Origin: a filamentous cyanobacterium ESFC-1
Lineage (GTDB): Bacteria; Cyanobacteriota; Cyanobacteriia; Cyanobacteriales; Spirulinaceae
Length of the DNA: 64,000 bases
NCBI GenBank assembly: GCA_000380225.1
Contig: KB904821.1
Location: 1,540,830-1,604,829 of the forward strand
Reading direction: 5' to 3'
Shown here: one piece after another, positions 20,626 through 37,407 of the stretch
Layout of the letters: every line of letters starts with the position of its first letter
Numbering within the stretch: the stretch's first letter is position 1
Program-made: the position numbers and the translations under genes
The notes under the pieces: model-generated
Told to the model about the DNA's origin: nothing
What the model saw: the letters and a program-made list of their open reading frames with translations, nothing else
Database searches by the model: none

Positions 20626-20655
20626 TTGACAGTTTATGTATTACACTTGTAGTAT
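20626..20655 (+). promoter_or_regulatory. Promoter with CopY/BlaI-like operator before the tRNA array
   Basis: TTGACA at 20626-20631, an 18-base spacer and TAGTAT at 20650-20655 form a sigma-70-type promoter. Inside the spacer and touching the -10 box is TACACTTGTA (20642-20651), which fits TACA-N2-TGTA, the operator core of CopY/BlaI/MecI repressors. GTATTACACT at 20638-20647 recurs as a perfect inverted copy AGTGTAATAC at 20727-20736. This suggests regulated transcription of the array; no such repressor gene is seen here. Confidence 0.5.
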
Positions 20656-20837: not shown

Positions 20838-20910
20838 GGGGTTGTAACTCAGTGGTGAGAGTGCCTGTCTGTCGAACAGGAAGTCGCGGGTTCAAATCCC
20901 GTCAGCCCCG
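20838..20910 (+). tRNA. tRNA-Asp(GTC)
   Basis: First gene of the array. Acceptor GGGGTTG/CAGCCCC, anticodon stem CCTGT/ACAGG with loop CTGTCGA and canonical T loop TTCAAAT. Discriminator G as expected for Asp. CCA not encoded. Confidence 0.93.
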
Positions 20911-20937
20911 CTCAAGCCGCAGTTAGAGATATCATCC

Positions 20938-21011
20938 GCATCGGTAGCCAAGAGGTTGAAGGCGGGAGCCTGCAAAGCTCTTATTCGTGGGTTCGACTCC
21001 CACCCGATGCT
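20938..21011 (+). tRNA. tRNA-Cys(GCA)
   Basis: Acceptor GCATCGG/CCGATGC, anticodon stem GGAGC/GCTCT with loop CTGCAAA, T stem GTGGG/CCCAC. Discriminator T, the usual Cys identity base. Confidence 0.92.
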
Positions 21012-21016
21012 TGCGT

Positions 21017-21088
21017 TGCAGCGTAGCACAACGGCAGTGCGCCTGGCTCATAACCAGGAAAGTGTGGGTTCAACTCCCATCGCTGCAA
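21017..21088 (+). tRNA. tRNA-Met(CAT)
   Basis: Acceptor TGCAGCG/CGCTGCA, so it begins with U1-A72. Anticodon stem CCTGG/CCAGG with loop CTCATAA; T loop TTCAACT. No initiator-type GGG/CCC pairs in the anticodon stem, so elongator Met is likely; Ile(CAT, lysidine) is the alternative. Confidence 0.85.
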
Positions 21089-21094
21089 CCAACT

Positions 21095-21166
21095 GTGGGG
21101 ATGGTGTAATGGCTAACATTTCGGTCTCCAAAACCGACGCTCTGGGTTCAAATCCCAGTCCCCGCG
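21095..21166 (+). tRNA. tRNA-Trp(CCA)
   Basis: Acceptor GTGGGGA/TCCCCGC with one G-U pair, anticodon stem TCGGT/ACCGA with loop CTCCAAA, T stem CTGGG/CCCAG. Discriminator G, normal for Trp. Six bases separate it from tRNA-Met. Confidence 0.9.
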
Positions 21167-21199
21167 TTCCGCCGTATCCCAACCCGCGAAGCTTACAAA

Positions 21200-21250
21200 C
21201 GGTTATCAAACGGCAACGTTTGAGTAGGTTCGATTCCTACCGCCTCCGCC
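21200..21250 (+). pseudogene. tRNA-Ser 3' half (class II variable arm, T arm, acceptor 3' strand)
   Basis: The stretch contains a perfect 7-bp hairpin TCAAACG-GCAA-CGTTTGA like the long variable arm of a tRNA-Ser, then T arm GTAGG-TTCGATT-CCTAC, then CGCCTCC-G-CCA as acceptor strand with an encoded CCA. No matching D arm, anticodon arm or 5' acceptor strand precedes it. GGAGGTG, able to pair with CGCCTCC, lies 9 bases downstream at 21257. It is either a broken gene or a rearranged (permuted) one. Confidence 0.6.
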
Positions 21251-21306
21251 AACCTTGGAGGTGGTTAAAAAAACAGCTTCTCATCCTTATATGGTGGATT
21301 CTCCCT

Positions 21307-21380
21307 GGTGCCGTAGGCAAATTGGTTAAGCCGCTTGACTTTCAATCAGGTGAATGCGGGTTCAAACCCCGTCGGCACTT
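21307..21380 (+). tRNA. tRNA-Glu(TTC)
   Basis: Acceptor GGTGCCG/CGGCACT (first pair G-U), anticodon stem CTTGA/TCAGG with loop CTTTCAA, T stem GCGGG/CCCGT. Discriminator T rather than the usual G or A. It is far from the ordinary cyanobacterial tRNA-Glu in acceptor sequence. Confidence 0.88.
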
Positions 21381-21415
21381 TTTCAGTCATCAGGGATTAA
21401 CGTATTACAAACTTT

Positions 21416-21497
21416 GGGTTGGTATCCAAATTGGGAACGGAACCTGACTGTAAATCAGGTGCCATCGGCTTTGGGGGTTCGAGTCCCTCCCAACCCA
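21416..21497 (+). tRNA. tRNA-Tyr(GTA)
   Basis: Acceptor GGGTTGG/CCAACCC, anticodon stem CCTGA/TCAGG with loop CTGTAAA, long variable arm as expected of class II bacterial tRNA-Tyr, T loop TTCGAGT. Discriminator A. Confidence 0.93.
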
Positions 21498-21502
21498 TGC
21501 GC

Positions 21503-21597
<95 letters not shown>

Positions 21598-21601
21598 TTT
21601 T

Positions 21602-21676
21602 GAGAGTGTGGTGTAACTGGACAACACATTAGTCTACGAAACTAAAGACTTGGGGGTTCAAGTCCCTCCACTCTCG
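21602..21676 (+). tRNA. tRNA-Arg(ACG)
   Basis: Acceptor GAGAGTG/CACTCTC, anticodon stem TTAGT/ACTAA with loop CTACGAA, T loop TTCAAGT. Discriminator G. A34 would need deamination to inosine. Confidence 0.92.
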
Positions 21677-21681
21677 CTTTT

Positions 21682-21755
21682 CCCCCGGTAGCTCAGTGGG
21701 TCAGAGCGCTGGTTTGAAGCACCAGAGGTCGTCAGTTCAATACTGACCTGGGGGA
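21682..21755 (+). tRNA. tRNA-Phe(GAA)
   Basis: Acceptor CCCCCGG/CTGGGGG, anticodon stem CTGGT/ACCAG with loop TTGAAGC, T stem GTCAG/CTGAC with loop TTCAATA. Discriminator A. Followed by 225 bases of heptamer-type repeats. Confidence 0.9.
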
Positions 21756-21979
21756 CTTTTCTTCAGTTGTCAGTCATCAGTAATCAGTCATCAGTTTTTT
21801 GGGCAGTCGGCAATCGGCAATCGGCAGTCGGGGAGGAGTCAAATTCTACCCCTCTAAAGACAGTCAGAAATTTGGCTGTTGGATGGACTCTCGAAAAATA
21901 GCTCAAAGCCTTACAGCTTAAACAAATTAGCAAATTACCACAACTGTTGACTGTTAACTGATAACTGATAACTGTGTTT
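21756..21979. repeat. Heptamer and short repeats inside the array
   Basis: CAGTCATCAGTAATCAGTCATC heptamers (split units of TGATGAC type), GGCAATCGGCAATCGGCAGTCGG triplets and, at the right end, AACTGATAACTGATAACTG. No tRNA or ORF is recognisable between them. The same TGATAACTGA units precede the tRNA genes at 22409, 22600 and 22857. Confidence 0.7.
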
Positions 21980-22051
21980 TGCCTTGTAGCTCAATGGTGG
22001 AGCAAGCGGCTGTTAACCGCGAGGTTGTGGGTTCGAGTCCCACCGAGGCAG
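21980..22051 (+). tRNA. tRNA-Asn(GTT)
   Basis: Acceptor TGCCTTG/CGAGGCA with one G-U pair, anticodon loop CTGTTAA on a stem with an A-G mismatch at its top, T stem GTGGG/CCCAC. Discriminator G. Confidence 0.9.
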
Positions 22052-22062
22052 TTTCTAATCTT

Positions 22063-22136
22063 TGCCGAGTAGACGAATTGGTAAAGTCGCCTGTCTCTGA
22101 AACAGGAAATTGTAGGTTCGACTCCTACCTCGGCAG
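22063..22136 (+). tRNA. tRNA-Gln(CTG)
   Basis: Acceptor TGCCGAG/CTCGGCA, anticodon stem CCTGT/ACAGG with loop CTCTGAA, T stem GTAGG/CCTAC. U1-A72 and discriminator G are Gln identity features. Confidence 0.92.
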
Positions 22137-22139
22137 TGA

Positions 22140-22213
22140 TGGGAAGTACGCAAACAGGTAAAGCGACCTGCCTTTGAAGCAGATGTTTGAAGGTTCGATT
22201 CCTTCCTTCCCAG
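22140..22213 (+). tRNA. tRNA-Gln(TTG)
   Basis: Acceptor TGGGAAG/CTTCCCA, anticodon loop CTTTGAA on stem CTGC/GCAG with a mismatched outer pair, T stem GAAGG/CCTTC. U1-A72 and G73 again fit Gln. Three bases from its neighbour. Confidence 0.9.
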
Positions 22214-22218
22214 TGTTT

Positions 22219-22294
22219 ACTCCTGTAGCCCAATTTGGTAGAGGCGGCTGAGTCAAAATCAGTTTATGTGTAGGTTCGATTCCTATCAGGAGTA
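22219..22294 (+). tRNA. tRNA-Leu(CAA), short variable loop
   Basis: 76 nt. Acceptor ACTCCTG/CAGGAGT, anticodon stem GCTGA/TCAGT with loop GTCAAAA, then only six variable bases (TTATGT) before T stem GTAGG/CCTAT. Bacterial tRNA-Leu normally carries a long variable arm; this one does not. Discriminator A, as needed for Leu. Confidence 0.85.
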
Positions 22295-22408
22295 TTGTCA
22301 GTGACCAGTGACCAGTTACCAATTGACTTTAGTTAGTCTTCGATTTCGATGTTTCAATTCACTCAAAACAGTTGATGACTGATTACTGTTTACTGATAAC
22401 TGAAAAAA

Positions 22409-22484
22409 GCTCCTGTGGCCCAATTGGCAGAGGCGGCAGATTTAAAATCTGTTCATCGTGTGGGTTCGACTCCCACCAGGAGTA
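22409..22484 (+). tRNA. tRNA-Leu(TAA), short variable loop
   Basis: 76 nt. Acceptor GCTCCTG/CAGGAGT (G-U first pair), anticodon stem GCAGA/TCTGT with loop TTTAAAA, seven variable bases (TCATCGT), T stem GTGGG/CCCAC, discriminator A. It lacks the class II arm and is similar to the Leu(CAA) gene at 22219. Confidence 0.87.
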
Positions 22485-22599
22485 TGTTCAATTACCAGTT
22501 ATCAATTATCAATTTTGGAAAGTTAATCTTTGCTGTTCATTCATCAATTAACTCAACAAAACTGACGACTGATTACTGTTAACTGATAACTGAAAATGA

Positions 22600-22673
22600 C
22601 CGGGTGTAGCGCAGTTTGGTAGCGCGTCTGCTTTGGGAGCAGAATGTCGCAGGTTCAAATCCTGCCACCCGGA
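22600..22673 (+). tRNA. tRNA-Pro(TGG)
   Basis: Acceptor CCGGGTG/CACCCGG, anticodon stem TCTGC/GCAGA with loop TTTGGGA, T stem GCAGG/CCTGC, discriminator A. All regular. Confidence 0.95.
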
Positions 22674-22679
22674 TTTTTT

Positions 22680-22752
22680 ACCCTTGTGACGGAACGGAAG
22701 ACGTACTGTACTCAGAATGCAGGTTTTGTGGGTTCGACTCCCACCAAGGGTA
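22680..22752 (+). tRNA. tRNA-Leu(CAG), short variable loop
   Basis: 73 nt. Acceptor ACCCTTG/CAAGGGT, anticodon stem CTGTA/TGCAG with loop CTCAGAA, five variable bases (GTTTT), T stem GTGGG/CCCAC, discriminator A. Third array tRNA-Leu without a long variable arm. Confidence 0.85.
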
Positions 22753-22856
22753 TATTCAATTACCAATTAACAATTACCAATGACCAATTAATACTTCGAC
22801 TTATTAACTGAACAAAAATTGATGACTGATGACTGTTAATTGATAACTGAAAGAAA

Positions 22857-22931
22857 GCCCCCGTAGCCCAATCGGAAGAGGCTCTCTTGCTAAGAACCTA
22901 GTGAGTGCTGGTTCGAGTCCAGTCGGGGGTA
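22857..22931 (+). tRNA. tRNA of uncertain identity (Ala TGC or Ser GCT)
   Basis: Acceptor GCCCCCG/CGGGGGT, D arm GCC/GGC and T arm GCTGG-TTCGAGT-CCAGT are clear. The anticodon arm is irregular: stem GCTCT/AGAAC with one C-A mismatch gives loop CTTGCTA (anticodon TGC, Ala); the alternative loop TTGCTAA would give GCT (Ser) with a worse stem. Possibly decaying. Confidence 0.6.
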
Positions 22932-22942
22932 TGGTCAAACAT

Positions 22943-23016
22943 GGCAGGGATGGAGCAAAAGTGGCTCACTAGCCTCATAAGCTAGAAATCAGTAAGTGCA
23001 ATTCTTACCCCTGCGA
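22943..23016 (+). tRNA. tRNA with CAT anticodon (Met or Ile2), aberrant T loop
   Basis: Acceptor GGCAGGG/CCCTGCG leaves a G-G mismatch at 1-72. Anticodon stem CTAGC/GCTAG with loop CTCATAA. The T loop is TGCAATT instead of TTC-type. CCA appears encoded at 23017-23019. The unpaired first position recalls initiators, but the three G-C pairs of initiator anticodon stems are missing. Confidence 0.75.
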
Positions 23017-23026
23017 CCAATTTTTG

Positions 23027-23098
23027 GCAGGTGTGATGTAAGCGGCAACATGAAGCTTTCGTAAGGCTTTCTTGCAGGTTCAAGTCCTGTCACCTGCT
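23027..23098 (+). tRNA. tRNA-Thr(CGT)
   Basis: Acceptor GCAGGTG/CACCTGC, anticodon stem AAGCT/GGCTT with loop TTCGTAA, T stem GCAGG/CCTGT, discriminator T. One of three Thr isoacceptors with the same compact D arm. Confidence 0.9.
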
Positions 23099-23103
23099 TG
23101 GGT

Positions 23104-23177
23104 GCAGATGTGGTGTGAATTGGTCAACATCGAGACGTGGTATGTCTTGGCTGCGGGTTCAAATCCTGCCATCTGCT
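23104..23177 (+). tRNA. tRNA-Thr(GGT)
   Basis: Acceptor GCAGATG/CATCTGC, anticodon stem GAGAC/GTCTT with loop GTGGTAT, T stem GCGGG/CCTGC with a G-U pair, discriminator T. Six bases from the preceding gene. Confidence 0.9.
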
Positions 23178-23185
23178 TTGATTTT

Positions 23186-23258
23186 GGGAATGTAGCTCAA
23201 TGGCTAGAGCATTCGGCTTTTAACCGATGGGTTGTAGGTTCGAGTCCTACCATTCCCA
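23186..23258 (+). tRNA. tRNA-Lys(TTT)
   Basis: Acceptor GGGAATG/CATTCCC, anticodon loop CTTTTAA on stem TCGG/CCGA with a mismatched outer pair, T stem GTAGG/CCTAC, discriminator A. Confidence 0.93.
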
Positions 23259-23263
23259 TGGTC

Positions 23264-23335
23264 GCAAGCGTGATGTAATGGGCAACATAAGGCTCTTGTA
23301 AAGCTTTTTTGCGAGTTCGAGTCTCGCCGCTTGCT
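23264..23335 (+). tRNA. tRNA-Thr(TGT)
   Basis: Acceptor GCAAGCG/CGCTTGC, anticodon stem AGGCT/AGCTT with loop CTTGTAA, T stem GCGAG/CTCGC, discriminator T. Last tRNA before the first protein genes of the array. Confidence 0.9.
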
Positions 23336-23377
23336 TGCTATTTTTATAATTGTAATTGTGGTGTTTTAAGAGGATGA

Positions 23378-24223
23378 ATGTTAAAAGTGAGACGCAAGAA
23401 AATTGCCAAAGATACAGTCGATATTCTTCAACGTGGGCATTACGAAACACAAAAGGCAGGGAATGTCAATATTTCCGAAAGTTTATCGTTTTGTTTAACG
23501 CAAACCAGGTGTTACAATCCCGAAGGTTTAGTGAGGCTTGAAGCTGAAGTATTGTCTCAATCTCCGGCTTTTTCACAAACCAAGTTTGAGGTTGAAAATG
23601 AGACGAGTTTACAGGGTGCAGAGCGCTTGGCAAGGTTAGAAAGGTTTACGAAAGTTGGCGTTTTAAATTTTGCTTCGGCAAAGAATCCGGGGGGCGGTTT
23701 TCTCAATGGCGCACAAGCACAAGAGGAAAGTTTGGCGCGAAGTTCAGGGCTGTATCGCAGTTTACTAAAGTGTCCTGAATATTACGAGTTTCATCGCAAT
23801 TTGCGATCGCTCCTCTACTCAAACCATATCATCTATTCGCCCCATTGTCCGGTGTTTCGGCTCGATGATGGTACGTTACTCGATGATCCCTATCTGGTGG
23901 ATTTTGTTACGTCTCCTGCGCCCAATTTGGGGGCAATTGAACGCAATGAACCGAAAGCGAAGAAACAAGTCCCGGAAGTGTTGCGCGATCGCGCCTCAAA
24001 AATCCTGACTCTAGCAGCATATCACAATTGTGATGCTTTGGTTTTAGGGGCTTGGGGTTGTGGCGTTTTTCGCAATAATCCGGCAGTTGTCTCGCAAGCT
24101 TTTGCAGATTTGTTATTACCCAGTGGCGTGTTTTGGGGGCGATTTAATACGATTCTGTTTTCAGTTTTAGATCGAACTTCCGAGCAAAACATATTTCGAG
24201 AATTTCGCGATCGCTTTTCGTAA
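23378..24223 (+). CDS. TIGR02452 family (PARG-like macrodomain) protein
   Basis: A 281-residue protein. KVGVLNFASAKNPGGGFLNGAQAQEESLARSSGLYRSL (read from about residue 90) carries the N-PGGG-x-x-x-G-x2-AQEE signature of TIGR02452/DUF2263 proteins, a bacterial-type poly(ADP-ribose) glycohydrolase-like macrodomain. The Glu pair in AQEESL would be catalytic. The C-terminal LVLGAWGCGVFRNNP matches the loop that holds the diphosphate. It should bind or hydrolyse ADP-ribose links on protein or nucleic acid. AAGAGG lies six bases before an ATG at 23378. It sits between tRNA genes; its stop touches the cut end of hepT. Confidence 0.85.
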   Translation: MLKVRRKKIAKDTVDILQRGHYETQKAGNVNISESLSFCLTQTRCYNPEGLVRLEAEVLSQSPAFSQTKFEVENETSLQGAERLARLERFTKVGVLNFASAKNPGGGFLNGAQAQEESLARSSGLYRSLLKCPEYYEFHRNLRSLLYSNHIIYSPHCPVFRLDDGTLLDDPYLVDFVTSPAPNLGAIERNEPKAKKQVPEVLRDRASKILTLAAYHNCDALVLGAWGCGVFRNNPAVVSQAFADLLLPSGVFWGRFNTILFSVLDRTSEQNIFREFRDRFS

Positions 24224-24439
24224 TCAATCTTCCTCGAACTCATTTCTCAGGATTTGCTCAACTTGAATCATAGGAATATTTTTAACAGCTTCGCCAATAA
24301 TTTGTAAATTGCGAATGACAGCATCAAAAGTACGTTCGTCAGCAAGAAACTGACTCATATTCATATCTTGGGTGTAGCGTCTAATTTTAGTACTACTGTT
24401 GAGGATATCTTCTAAATATAATTGAAGATTACGCGACAT
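24224..24439 (-). pseudogene. hepT: HepT-like HEPN toxin, truncated before the catalytic motif
   Basis: A 71-residue minus-strand frame starting MSRNLQLYLEDILNSSTKI and running through FDAVIRNLQIIGEAVKNIP, the typical HepT (DUF86) N-terminal two-thirds. Full-length HepT proteins are about 110-140 residues, with an R-x4-H HEPN RNase motif in the missing C-terminal part (W-x-I-x-G-x-R-x2-x-IH). Here the frame ends EILRNEFEED-like and stops one base beyond the macrodomain gene stop. Without R-x4-H it should lack RNase activity. It may still bind MntA. It overlaps mntA by 11 bases, the usual order for this toxin-antitoxin pair. Confidence 0.75.
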
Positions 24440-24719
24440 AAATTAACTCTTGCTCAACTTGAGATTTAATTTGAGGCTTTAACATTTTCCAAGTGACTAA
24501 ATCGACAGAAACATTCAAAGTATCTTCGATGTAGAACTTCACATCCATGTAGCGGTCAAAGGTCAAAGAGCCTTCAAAATCAATCAAAATATCAATGTCA
24601 CTTTCTTCTTGGGCTTCATTACGAGCAACTGAGCCAAAAATAGCTAAAGTTTTCACACCAAACTGTTTGAATTTGTCTCGATGCTGTTTTAGAAGTTCAA
24701 CAGCTTGATTTCTATCCAT
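24429..24719 (-). CDS. mntA: MntA-like nucleotidyltransferase antitoxin
   Basis: A 96-residue minimal nucleotidyltransferase. The active-site motif GSVARNEAQEESDIDILIDF near residue 29 contains the GS and DxD of the family. MntA proteins neutralise HepT by transferring AMP to a Tyr next to the HEPN motif; the cyanobacterial HEPN-MNT system described from Aphanizomenon cleaves tRNA 3' ends when free. The gene lies antisense to the tRNA array and overlaps the truncated hepT. All catalytic residues appear present, so it may be an orphan antitoxin able to counter related toxins; that last point is inference. Confidence 0.85.
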   Translation of the reverse strand: MDRNQAVELLKQHRDKFKQFGVKTLAIFGSVARNEAQEESDIDILIDFEGSLTFDRYMDVKFYIEDTLNVSVDLVTWKMLKPQIKSQVEQELIYVA

Positions 24720-24782
24720 TCTTGTTATCTTTTTTAAAGTTGTGTAGCAGCATTATAGCAGAATTTAAAACAGTTTTCTCCT

Positions 24783-24853
24783 GCGGATATGGTGTAATGG
24801 CAGCACTCAAGCCTTCCAAGCTTTTAGTACGAGTTCGAGTCTCGTTATCCGCT
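24783..24853 (+). tRNA. tRNA-Gly(TCC)
   Basis: Acceptor GCGGATA/TATCCGC, anticodon loop CTTCCAA on stem AAGC/GCTT with mismatched outer pair, T stem ACGAG/CTCGT, discriminator T as usual for Gly. Confidence 0.9.
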
Positions 24854-24863
24854 TTTAAACTGT

Positions 24864-24935
24864 GCGAGTGTGATGTAATTGGGAGCATCTGAGTACGCCA
24901 TACTCAGCGCACGGGTTCAAGTCCCGTCACTCGCT
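24864..24935 (+). tRNA. tRNA-Gly(GCC) with C33
   Basis: Acceptor GCGAGTG/CACTCGC, anticodon stem TGAGT/ACTCA, loop ACGCCAT. Position 33, almost always U, is C here. T stem ACGGG/CCCGT, discriminator T. Confidence 0.85.
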
Positions 24936-24940
24936 TGTTT

Positions 24941-25013
24941 AGTCCTGTAGCTCAATCGGTAGAGTCCTTGTCTTACAAACAAGTTGTTGCAGGTTCGAGT
25001 CCTGTCAGGACTA
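24941..25013 (+). tRNA. tRNA-Val(TAC)
   Basis: Acceptor AGTCCTG/CAGGACT, anticodon stem CTTGT/ACAAG with loop CTTACAA, T stem GCAGG/CCTGT, discriminator A. Confidence 0.93.
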
Positions 25014-25056
25014 TGATTTAGTTTACCCAATTAGGGTTAATTAAATTAATTGGTTT

Positions 25057-25130
25057 GGGAGTGTAGCTCAATGGAATAGAGTATCGATCTTCTAAATCGA
25101 ATGTTGTAGGTTCGAGTCCTACCACTCCTG
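25057..25130 (+). tRNA. tRNA-Arg(TCT)
   Basis: Acceptor GGGAGTG/CACTCCT (first pair G-U), anticodon stem TCGAT/ATCGA with loop CTTCTAA, T stem GTAGG/CCTAC, discriminator G. Confidence 0.93.
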
Positions 25131-25208
25131 TTTGTTGTTAACGTTTGGAGGTGTGTTTTCTTTATACTTAGTTTGCCTTTTTAATGATCGCGATCGCGCT
25201 CTATTTTA

Positions 25209-25413
25209 GCGTGTCCCAACCTCTATGAGCTTACATACATAGTACGAGAGGAATTTATGCTGCCGTTGTACGGTAGGCGCTTGGAAAAAGGGAGTGCGAA
25301 GAACCCGGTAGGTTGGCTTAGAAGCAGCCATCCTTTAAAGAGTGCGTAATAGCTCATCGGCGGAGTCCCCTAAGTACCTGAGTCAGCGCAAAACGCTCTA
25401 GAAACTTACACGC
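25209..25413 (+). ncRNA. Mini-23S RNA: sarcin-ricin loop joined to the GTPase-associated centre
   Basis: A roughly 205-nt sequence closed by GCGTGT (25209-25214) and ACACGC (25408-25413). At 25241-25252 is AGTACGAGAGGA, the universal core of 23S helix 95 (sarcin-ricin loop), with GAGA at 25246-25249 and flanking pairs CATA/TATG. A hairpin CTGCCG-TTGTA-CGGTAG follows (25260-25276). At 25310-25355 is a near-exact helix 43/44 sequence (TTGGCTTAGAAGCAGCC, then GAGTGCGTAATAGCTC), with the L11/thiostrepton residues A1067 and A1095 (E. coli numbering, aligned by eye) at 25320 and 25348, on a helix-42-like stem CCGGT/ATCGG. GCGCT (25277-25281) can pair with AGCGC (25385-25389). In 23S rRNA the order is reversed and the parts lie about 1.6 kb apart. 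It sits in an array of tRNA genes on the same strand and is followed by the NADAR gene. Not a known RNA family to me. Confidence 0.8.
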
Positions 25414-25496
25414 CATTGTAAATTATTAGGGGCGCGATCTACGAACTTGATAATTCTGGTACTGTAGATAAAAAAGGTTAAGTTGAAAAATCAAAC

Positions 25497-25934
25497 ATGA
25501 CTATTTACTTTTACAGTACCCGCGAGATGTACGGCTGTTTTTCTAATTTTTCCCGTCATGGTTTTGAACTGGATGGGTTTTATTGGCTCACCAGCGAGCA
25601 TTATTTTCAAGCTCATAAATTCATTGAAACTGACCCCAATTGGTTTGCTAAAATTCGCGAAGTAAAGACTCCGAGAGATGCCGCAAAAATGGGACGAGAT
25701 CGCGCTCATCCTTTACGGCAAGATTGGAATGAAGTTAAAGACGGAATTATGAAGAAAGCGGTTCTCAAGAAGTTTCAAACTCATGCTGATATTCGAGAAA
25801 TTTTGCTTTCTACAGAAGATGAGTTATTAGTCGAAAATGCGCCGAATGATTATTATTGGGGCTGCGGTAAAGATGGAAGCGGACAGAATAAGTTAGGCTT
25901 GATTTTAATGGAAGTGCGCGACATTTTACGGTAA
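25497..25934 (+). CDS. NADAR family ADP-ribose-related protein
   Basis: A 145-residue single-domain NADAR (DUF1768/YbiA-like) protein. Conserved points: FSNFS near residue 17, the WLTSEHYFQAHKF motif near 30 with the catalytic-type Glu, GRDRAHPLRQDW near 66 and WGCGKDGSGQNKLGLILMEVR at the end. NADAR proteins cleave N-glycosidic bonds; YbiA acts on a riboflavin intermediate, and others remove ADP-ribose from guanine in DNA as antitoxins of DarT1. Length is standard and complete. The gene lies within the tRNA array just after the rRNA-like element, so an RNA-related substrate is tempting but unproven. Confidence 0.88.
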   Translation: MTIYFYSTREMYGCFSNFSRHGFELDGFYWLTSEHYFQAHKFIETDPNWFAKIREVKTPRDAAKMGRDRAHPLRQDWNEVKDGIMKKAVLKKFQTHADIREILLSTEDELLVENAPNDYYWGCGKDGSGQNKLGLILMEVRDILR

Positions 25935-26088
25935 GAAGGGTAAACTCCTGCCTCAATTTCTAATCGTAACTTCTGATTTTAGAGTTAAGGCAGAGCCTTG
26001 TTTTTACGTTCCTTGGTAGACCCAAGAAACAAGATTAAATTTTCTTCCCCCTCTTCCCCCTCTTCCCACTCTTCCCTCTCTCAATTCT
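25935..26088. repeat. Intergenic repeat E and pyrimidine tract
   Basis: Contains AAGGCAGAGCCTTGTTTTT and TTCCTTGGTAGACCCAAGAA (family E, also near 12530 and 46550), then about 50 bases of CCCTCTTCC-type polypyrimidine. No gene is seen. Confidence 0.6.
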
Positions 26089-26159
26089 GGGGACTTGGTG
26101 TAACGGTAACATGAGACTCTTGCACAGTCTTGATAGGGGTTCAATTCCCCTAGTCTCCA
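26089..26159 (+). tRNA. tRNA-Ala(TGC)
   Basis: Acceptor GGGGACT/AGTCTCC with G-U pair, anticodon stem AGACT/AGTCT with loop CTTGCAC, T stem AGGGG/CCCCT, discriminator A. The G3-U70 pair, the classic alanine identity element, is present. Confidence 0.93.
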
Positions 26160-26164
26160 TTCGT

Positions 26165-26240
26165 GGTGTCTGAAGTCGAAGTGGTCGAGACGCTGGTTTG
26201 TGAAGCCAGTTATTAGCGGGTTCGAGTCCCGTCGGATGCC
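26165..26240 (+). tRNA. tRNA-His(GTG)
   Basis: Acceptor GTGTCTG/CGGATGC with several G-U pairs, an extra G at position -1 (26165) opposite C73 (26240), the histidine identity pair. Anticodon stem CTGGT/GCCAG with loop TTGTGAA, T stem GCGGG/CCCGT. Confidence 0.92.
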
Positions 26241-26292
26241 CTTTTTAGTTAATAGTCAACAGTCAAAAGTCATCAGTTTTTTATTAATATTT

Positions 26293-26375
26293 GGAAGCTG
26301 CGGCTAAAGGTTAGCAATCTATCTCGAAAATAGACGTGCAGCAAGACTGTAGGGGTTCGATTCCTCCAGTTTCCG
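26293..26375 (+). tRNA. tRNA-Ser(CGA)
   Basis: Acceptor GGAAGCT/AGTTTCC, anticodon stem TCTAT/ATAGA with loop CTCGAAA, class II variable arm, T loop TTCGATT, discriminator G. D arm GCGGCTAAAGGTTAGC is irregular. Confidence 0.88.
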
Positions 26376-26383
26376 TAACTTAG

Positions 26384-26466
26384 GGAAGATGCGGCTCATG
26401 GCGAGCAACCTGTCTTGAAAACAGGCGTATAGTGAGACTATAGGGGTTCGATTCCTCCATCTTCCG
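26384..26466 (+). tRNA. tRNA-Ser(TGA)
   Basis: Acceptor GGAAGAT/ATCTTCC, anticodon stem CCTGT/ACAGG with loop CTTGAAA, variable arm with TATAGTGAGACTATA pairing, T loop TTCGATT, discriminator G. Its 3' half closely resembles that of the Ser(CGA) gene just upstream. Confidence 0.92.
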
Positions 26467-37324: not shown

Positions 37325-37407
37325 TGCGGATGAAAGGACTTGAACCTTCACTTCGCGAGGAAACTAGAACCTAAATCTAGCGCGTCTACCAATTCCGCCA
37401 CATCCGC
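37325..37407 (-). tRNA. tRNA-Leu(TAG), ordinary class II
   Basis: 83 nt on the minus strand. Acceptor GCGGATG/CATCCGC, anticodon stem CTAGA/TCTAG with loop TTTAGGT, a long variable arm (TTTCCTCGCGAAGTG) and T stem GAAGG/CCTTT. Discriminator A. It has the normal bacterial tRNA-Leu shape, in contrast to the three array tRNA-Leu genes. Confidence 0.95.

Follow-up and report, generated by a model that had tools for sequence, protein, structure and literature searches.

Leucine tRNAs of bacteria are usually filed under class II. A class II tRNA is defined by a variable region of at least 10 nt (excerpt of PMC7609411), and the locus described here raises the question of whether genes that carry leucine anticodons and lack a long variable arm are leucine tRNAs all the same, and how and why such an arm would be lost. 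The genes lie close together in a tRNA array of the filamentous cyanobacterium ESFC-1, inside the window, by which we mean the whole stretch of 64,000 nucleotides that was analysed (Table 1).

Table 1. Features of the window discussed in the text, with the basis of each assignment
Feature	Position	Strand	Details	Basis
Candidate promoter, TTGACA-N16-TGTAGTAT	20626..20655	+	resembles the TrcR-repressed trn operon promoter of Anabaena	pattern scan
tRNA array	20838..26466	+	29 genes	ARAGORN, parse
tRNA-Leu(CAA)	22219..22294	+	variable region 6 nt (TTATGT), C12-G23 type	ARAGORN, Rfam tRNA model, parse
tRNA-Leu(TAA)	22409..22484	+	variable region 7 nt (TCATCGT), C12-G23 type	ARAGORN, Rfam tRNA model, parse
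tRNA-Leu(CAG)	22680..22752	+	variable region 5 nt (GTTTT), G12-C23 type	ARAGORN, Rfam tRNA model, parse
Putative decayed tRNA-Leu(AAG)	22857..22931	+	ARAGORN call Ala(TGC)	D arm, C3-G70, best matches
Conserved noncoding RNA, ~207 nt	25208..25414	+	sarcin-ricin and GTPase-centre 23S motifs	BLAST, Rfam, alignment
Host tRNA-Leu(TAG), class II	37325..37407	-	14-nt variable region	ARAGORN, parse; comparison

Short-armed leucine tRNA genes in the array

All tRNAs were parsed to standard numbering, with the variable region taken as positions 44-48. The initial annotation had described Leu(CAA), Leu(TAA) and Leu(CAG) as lacking the long arm, and this was borne out: their variable regions of 6, 7 and 5 nt fall below the class II border, and the leucine anticodons sit in complete cloverleaves with 7/7 acceptor, 5/5 anticodon-stem and 5/5 T-stem pairs and A73 in each gene. 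The Rfam tRNA model scores them at 51.0, 54.6 and 53.4 bits, respectively (gathering score 29), and without CCA, which is encoded in none of the three, they are 76, 76 and 73 nt long. It had been noted that a re-reading of the gene boundaries would refute the observation if it restored a long arm, but it does not do so; shifted ends cannot bring the arm back because the anticodon and T stems fix both borders of the variable region, and these paired stems leave no space for it. In the same array, Ser(GCT), Ser(TGA) and Tyr(GTA) have variable regions of 21, 16 and 13 nt.

The three genes are real, but the short-armed leucine set of the array was undercounted and has four members. The gene at 22857 has the GCCC..AGGC D arm of the short-armed Leu and C3-G70 where alanine has G3-U70, and, among the tRNAs compared, Leu(AAG) or Leu(TAG) genes from other arrays make up its top 15 matches. 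It has one additional base in the 5' anticodon strand and an Rfam tRNA score of 35.1, the lowest listed for the array (Ser(TGA) at 26384 is absent from that list). As judged from sequence, every leucine gene of the array is short-armed, three of them being sound and one decayed, and decayed members are open to misnaming, as the alanine call for the 22857 gene illustrates.

The host genome (5.6 Mb) has 72 Rfam tRNA matches, 29 within the window and 43 outside, and one LeuRS gene above the cut-off. The 43 ARAGORN genes in the stretches outside the window include class II Leu(TAA), Leu(CAA), Leu(GAG) and Leu(CAG) with variable regions of 17, 14, 13 and 16 nt. Counting the Leu(TAG) gene of the window, which had been rightly taken for a long-armed host gene, the host has class II tRNA-Leu for five anticodons and the array Leu are therefore supernumerary. 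Elsewhere in the genome, outside the array, a short-armed Leu(TAG) with an encoded CCA lies beside an odd Met-like tRNA (3357580-3358086; L034, L087). A remnant consisting of a T arm and acceptor with an encoded CCA can be seen by eye, with no tRNA call, between the Trp and Glu genes of the array (~21168-21250, +).

Distribution of the short arm

Fifteen cyanobacterial arrays were parsed, namely the window, five contigs of four family relatives (L081-L085, of which L081 and L085 belong to the same genome) and nine regions of plasmids (L079, L080, L090-L096). Their 41 Leu genes have variable regions of 5 nt (27 genes), 6 nt (10), 7 nt (1), 9 nt (1) and 10 nt (2), these last 2/41 lying on the published border of class II; those of Ser (n=23) span 12-21 nt and those of Tyr (n=7) 12-15 nt. 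An arm of less than 12 nt is thus found in 41/41 array Leu as against 0/30 Ser and Tyr (Fisher p 1e-20, which overstates independence because the rows are related). tRNAs with fewer than 6/7 acceptor or 4/5 T-stem pairs were left out of the count, a filter that removed no Leu, no Tyr and two Ser, both long-armed (19 and 21 nt). The pair 12-23 is C12-G23 in 16 of the 41 Leu and G12-C23 in 25. In the cyanobacterial arrays examined, tRNA-Leu is as a rule short-armed, and the same form is met again in phage contigs and plasmids.

Scanning with the pattern TGTRGCCCAANTGGNAGAGG, which shows spread and not frequency, gave at least 120 stretches in the viral_contigs set and at least 115 in the genome_contigs set. 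Among the matches listed, 232/234 called tRNAs that bear the pattern are Leu with 7 nt or less, the other two being a Leu of 12 nt or more and a Phe, and the genome records that bear it belong, by their titles, to Cyanobacteria, Actinomycetes, Bacteroidetes, Planctomycetes and others. Within the phylum, exact TGTRGCCCAANTGGNAGAGG is present in 13/194 genomes and its reversed control in 0. The GCCC..AGAGGC D arm can serve as a marker for this kind of tRNA-Leu. In viral loci, 166/202 parsed Leu among the matches listed are short-armed, in a set that was chosen by the pattern and gives no frequency. Arm loss in array Leu is not universal. Among the matches listed, Leu of 12 nt or more make up 14/200 (genome contigs) and 32/134 (viral contigs) in loci with at least 8 tRNAs, and a Leu(TAA) of 12-13 nt is retained in arrays L230, L263, L290, L303, L307, L311, L314, L317, L322, L340, L401 and L402. 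Two Tyr calls of 7 nt or less occur in genome loci, again among the matches listed, and one Ser and one Tyr call below 12 nt in the loci fetched around copies of the rRNA-like RNA treated below. In Gordonia phage Sixama (L098), three Leu have 5 nt and a fourth, poorly paired call has 23 nt; the T5-like phage STWB21 has one Leu with 9 nt.

Several side observations concern the surroundings of these arrays. In Sixama, a gene annotated as 'Ro-like RNA binding protein' comes directly before the tRNA array. An annotated HNH endonuclease gene is near the array in the plasmid records L079, L090, L091, L093 and L096, and the same is true of mycobacterial tRNA clusters (excerpt of PMC6582537). ARAGORN gives the call Pyl to a tRNA with a CTA anticodon that occurs in some cyanobacterial arrays or close to the rRNA-like RNA (L090, L093, L095, L275, L276, L398); it could possibly read UAG stop codons.

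A housekeeping use of the same design is indicated by Corynebacterium. All 45 tRNA matches were read in the draft genome of C. striatum ATCC 6940 (G013, via L245). One gene each was found for Leu(TAA) and Leu(CAA), both of them with the GCCC..AGGC D arm and 5 nt in the variable region; the corresponding lengths for Leu(TAG), Leu(CAG) and Leu(GAG) are 13, 16 and 18 nt. By eye, the Leu(CAA) gene adjoins a polA-like gene. C. minutissimum (G014, part of the tRNA genes) has the same five Leu genes, and in at least six more Corynebacterium records (L228, L233, L267, L269, L293, L295) the same Leu(CAA) is the lone tRNA of an 8-kb stretch. C. striatum appears to depend on the short-armed design for UUR codons, and a short-armed Leu looks like the sole UUA/UUG reader in this draft, in which an unassembled class II copy is possible. 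These class I Leu(TAA/CAA) are like the array genes in the GCCC..AGGC D arm, the 5-nt variable region, U48 and A73, but they are single-copy, no other UUR decoder was seen in the draft, and the CUN decoders beside them are class II. A loose Leu(CAA) pattern was tried on eight Corynebacterium genomes and dropped, as it gave dozens of matches in each, of the same order as the reversed control (higher or lower).

The one direct mention of such a tRNA that our literature searches gave is a single sentence on a horizontally acquired mycobacterial tRNA cluster, which has a short-loop tRNA-Leu(TAG) besides the normal host copy (excerpt of PMC6582537). That case concerns one isoacceptor, whereas several anticodons and many lineages are covered here and identity elements were tested. 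Long loops are noted for tRNA-Leu-2, -3 and -5 of M. tuberculosis (excerpt of PMC11541572), which hints that other tRNA-Leu of this species are without one. In the open-licence literature we found no account of how widely short-armed tRNA-Leu occurs, of the identity elements it keeps, of its contrast with Ser and Tyr or of its presence in Corynebacterium.

Leucine identity and predicted charging

Leucylation in E. coli draws on A73, A15-U48, G18G19, A20a and D-loop/T-loop contacts; the sequence and folding of the long arm are uncorrelated with it, and E. coli tRNA-Leu variants without the long arm and without the anticodon arm remain active (excerpt of PMC9976931). Measured against these determinants, which are those of E. 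coli and may differ from those of this cyanobacterium, the array genes compare as follows: U8, A14, A15, U48, G18G19, A20a and A73 are kept in 41/41 array Leu, the three of the window included, as is a D stem of three paired positions with 13-22 unpaired. The T-loop residues T54-T55-C56-A58, which the same review counts among the important contacts, are kept in 39/41, and in all three of the window. The smaller set of U8, A14, A15-U48, GG and A73 is not unique to Leu, since it is also present in 34/241 other short-armed array tRNAs. Among 376 distinct short-armed Leu from all loci, A14 is found in 372, A15 in 373, U48 in 372, A73 in 373 and all seven elements in 357. Human mitochondrial tRNA-Leu(UUR) offers a parallel in that it is short-armed and charged by LeuRS via A73 and A14, but it is organellar and its anticodon branch is partly unfolded, whereas the tRNAs described here are fully paired bacterial ones (excerpt of PMC9976931).

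We consider it probable that the genes encode true leucine tRNAs without the long arm that are charged with leucine by the single LeuRS of the host. That LeuRS still charges them was one of the explanations offered by the initial annotation, on the strength of A73; it is the reading that we favour, and it can now be argued from the wider set of E. coli determinants, from the dispensability of the arm (excerpt of PMC9976931) and from the UUR design of C. striatum, the best evidence that nature offers, with charging itself a step that we infer. If so, these tRNAs are a natural test of what LeuRS really requires.

Origin of the short arm

With training sets of 20, 30 and 50 sequences, a profile of the tRNA body only, built on class II Leu, named 21, 24 and 28 of the 41 array Leu as Leu, respectively. 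In a series of 40 repeats it names Leu in 22/25 of the G12-C23 genes, 6/16 of the C12-G23 genes, 3/4 of those from Corynebacterium and 0/237 other array tRNAs. Because Leu(TAA) and Leu(CAG) of the window are named Leu in 40/40 runs, both most likely descend from class II tRNA-Leu. Leu(CAA) is named Leu in 4/40 runs, Ile in 27 and Val in 8, and its origin appears ambiguous. Among the 40 distinct Leu sequences whose D arm is of the usual class II form (GCGG..ACGC), variable regions run from 5 to 18 nt with only 8 nt absent, and forms with 9-10 nt are contained in arrays L081 and L082; this graded series points to a stepwise shortening of class II tRNA-Leu.

It had been suggested from the mutual likeness of the three genes that they go back to a single class I ancestor whose anticodon changed. 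The likeness is true of Leu(CAA) and Leu(TAA), which agree in 84% of the body and can be regarded as sisters, but Leu(CAG) agrees with them in only 60-67%, and it and the 5-18 nt series of Leu with a class II D arm speak against a common class I ancestor. Another possibility is that the CAA/AAG-type lineage alone began with an anticodon change in another class I tRNA, and gained leucine identity later, with no loss of an arm. The lower rate at which the profile names C12-G23 genes Leu would agree with this, as would the sharply bounded group that TGTRGCCCAANTGGNAGAGG marks; however, the three-pair D stem, the unpaired 13-22 and A20a are common to 41/41 array Leu, Leu(TAA) is also of the C12-G23 type yet is named Leu in every run, and Leu with the class II D arm cover the arm lengths from 5 to 18 nt. 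We regard a class I origin of this lineage as quite possible but unlikely. Reversal of pair 12-23 was also considered as an adaptation to the short arm and was rejected as not general, since regions of 7 nt or less occur in 22 G12-C23 beside 16 C12-G23 Leu of the cyanobacterial set.

Promoter and proposed mechanism

The candidate promoter is the sole match to TTGACA-N16-TGTAGTAT in the window, with 0 in 100 shuffles (for TGTAGTAT alone, 0.74 occurrences are expected), and it is located 183 bp upstream of the first array tRNA. With 29 genes on one strand behind it, the locus is a long tRNA array in the sense of many tandem tRNA genes behind one promoter, and would form a single transcript. Among 86 loci with at least 8 same-strand tRNAs, a TrcR-type promoter lies at most 400 bp from a tRNA in 36 (37 matches, spacer 14-18), as against 0 for the reversed control; two pairs of loci, L080/L248 and L251/L399, are each a single record. 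A same-strand tRNA lies within 1.5 kb upstream of the promoter in 0/37 matches. The promoter is present in 9/15 of the parsed arrays; the pattern was not found in L081, L082, L083, L085, L092 and L094.

Stress induction of a trn operon is reportedly the finding of one earlier study. In Anabaena sp. PCC 7120 the trn operon, which has 26 tandem tRNA genes and TGTAGTAT over the -10 box, is repressed by TrcR and silent until translation is disturbed (excerpt of PMC10272220). The window array shares the many tandem genes and the promoter element, but it has 29 tRNAs, is located on a 5.4-Mb contig and is accompanied by PARG and NADAR genes and an rRNA-like RNA. By analogy, and with the operator recognized from its sequence, the array is most likely a TrcR-type backup operon that is induced by stress.

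We propose that impaired translation or stress would relieve repression by TrcR, as in Anabaena, and allow transcription of the array. The short-armed tRNA-Leu would be processed, receive CCA and be charged by LeuRS via the elbow and A73, and so provide extra or substitute leucine tRNAs. LeuRS would ignore the arm and read A73 together with the D-loop/T-loop corner, and SerRS and TyrRS would need the arms of their tRNAs; the long arm is recognized by SerRS (excerpt of PMC7609411). Array Leu may on this model have lost the arm because LeuRS does not need it, and array Ser and Tyr have kept theirs because SerRS and TyrRS do. Arm loss needs no function if it is tolerated by LeuRS.

Companion genes and toxin escape

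Two genes for ADP-ribose-related enzymes lie within the array, PARG_cat_microb (23378-24223, +; 4.5e-51) and NADAR (25497-25934, +; 3.8e-41). Other array loci have homologues of PARG (L082, L230, L260, L274, L392, L401) and of NADAR (L082, L232, L300, L331, L392, L400). On the opposite strand of the array, two small overlapping genes (24224-24439 and 24429-24719, -) resemble by eye a HEPN/MNT nucleotidyltransferase pair, for which tblastn gave no locus outside this genome.

The noncoding RNA at 25208 contains 47 nt that match the GTPase-associated centre of the host 23S rRNA at 94%, with support from Rfam, and a 13-mer, TAGTACGAGAGGA, identical to a host 23S stretch that we take to be the sarcin-ricin loop. 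The two pieces are in reversed order and 57 nt apart, as against ~1.5 kb in 23S. An exact pattern missed the other loci with this RNA, and BLAST recovered them: ten, all of them arrays by way of fetching, carry it at 74-79% identity (L082, L094, L230, L264, L274, L290, L303, L307, L311, L340). Nine of the ten were aligned with the RNA of the window, giving a mean column identity of 86% and a consensus of 47 pairs, 6 of them with double changes; folded alone, the window RNA did no better than shuffles (z -0.43). Full-length copies (at least 138 bits) are present in 13/194 genomes, and the weaker matches in other genomes are mostly a single segment resembling their 23S genes. Six of the 13 copies are inside a tRNA array (window, L392, L395, L401, L402, L403) and one is 6 kb beyond an array (L399). 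For the remaining six, the stretch fetched is free of tRNAs in L393, L394 and L400 and has one or two in L396, L397 and L398, and in three of these (L397, L398, L400) TGTAGTAT is 25-57 bp upstream of the RNA. A literature search for such an RNA found nothing fitting. From its two motifs, the RNA may be a ribosome mimic; as a decoy or sponge it could draw off toxins or factors that bind to either of the two sites. Beside the array-free copy in L394 (4082-8416) are genes for a ThiF-family protein, a VWA-domain protein and a 278-aa protein that matches no Pfam family; L396 and L397 have similarly sized and placed counterparts of the 278-aa and ThiF-family proteins.

One explanation for the short arm is that it was shed under selection, as an escape from toxins or nucleases that grip the class II arm, while LeuRS went on charging, which would make the array a set of toxin-resistant substitutes. 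The initial annotation had set escape from nucleases beside LeuRS charging as an alternative; the two are compatible, and escape would possibly add a cause. Toxins of this kind exist: MenT3 prefers tRNA-Ser, and deletion of the long variable loop of that tRNA abolishes the long additions, but MenT3 shows no preference for tRNA-Leu (excerpt of PMC11541572). The many phage contigs with short-armed Leu would suit an escape (the 166/202 parsed Leu among the matches listed, in the pattern-chosen set), and PARG, NADAR and the rRNA-like RNA in the same array would fit a counter-toxin kit, although such a kit would be incomplete because the array Ser and Tyr retain their arms (30/30). Arm loss without benefit accounts for the data equally well. 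We hold escape from toxins to be an unlikely cause, if one that gives grounds for asking whether toxins shape tRNAs. More speculative, and improbable in our view, is the extension that phage and cyanobacterial mobile arrays are toxin-resistant translation kits, in which Leu would have shed its arm under attack by arm-reading toxins, with LeuRS alone tolerating the loss, the 23S-mimic RNA would act as a decoy for toxins directed at the ribosome, and PARG and NADAR would strip ADP-ribose marks.

Alternatives to leucine charging

A further suggestion was that, despite their leucine anticodons, these tRNAs receive a different amino acid, so that Leu codons would be mistranslated. In the body-only profile, Ile or Val calls for Leu(CAA) do outnumber Leu calls, and the non-Leu body closest to it is that of the array Val(TAC), at 73%; a weak profile score does not mean another amino acid, however, because housekeeping Leu of the same type from Corynebacterium also score only 3/4. 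PheRS, the nearest risk for YAA anticodons, requires G34 (excerpt of PMC9976931), which is absent here, the tested LeuRS determinants are all present, and a mistranslation conserved across many lineages would be costly, so that we disfavour this reading as very improbable. The least probable reading of all, that the genes are decaying and unexpressed relics, has the decay of one of the four (22857) to recommend it, but the other three have complete stems, and among 42 cyanobacterial short-armed Leu (41 array and L087) every acceptor and T stem is fully paired (42/42), as are 38 of the anticodon stems, and most positions show several pair types.
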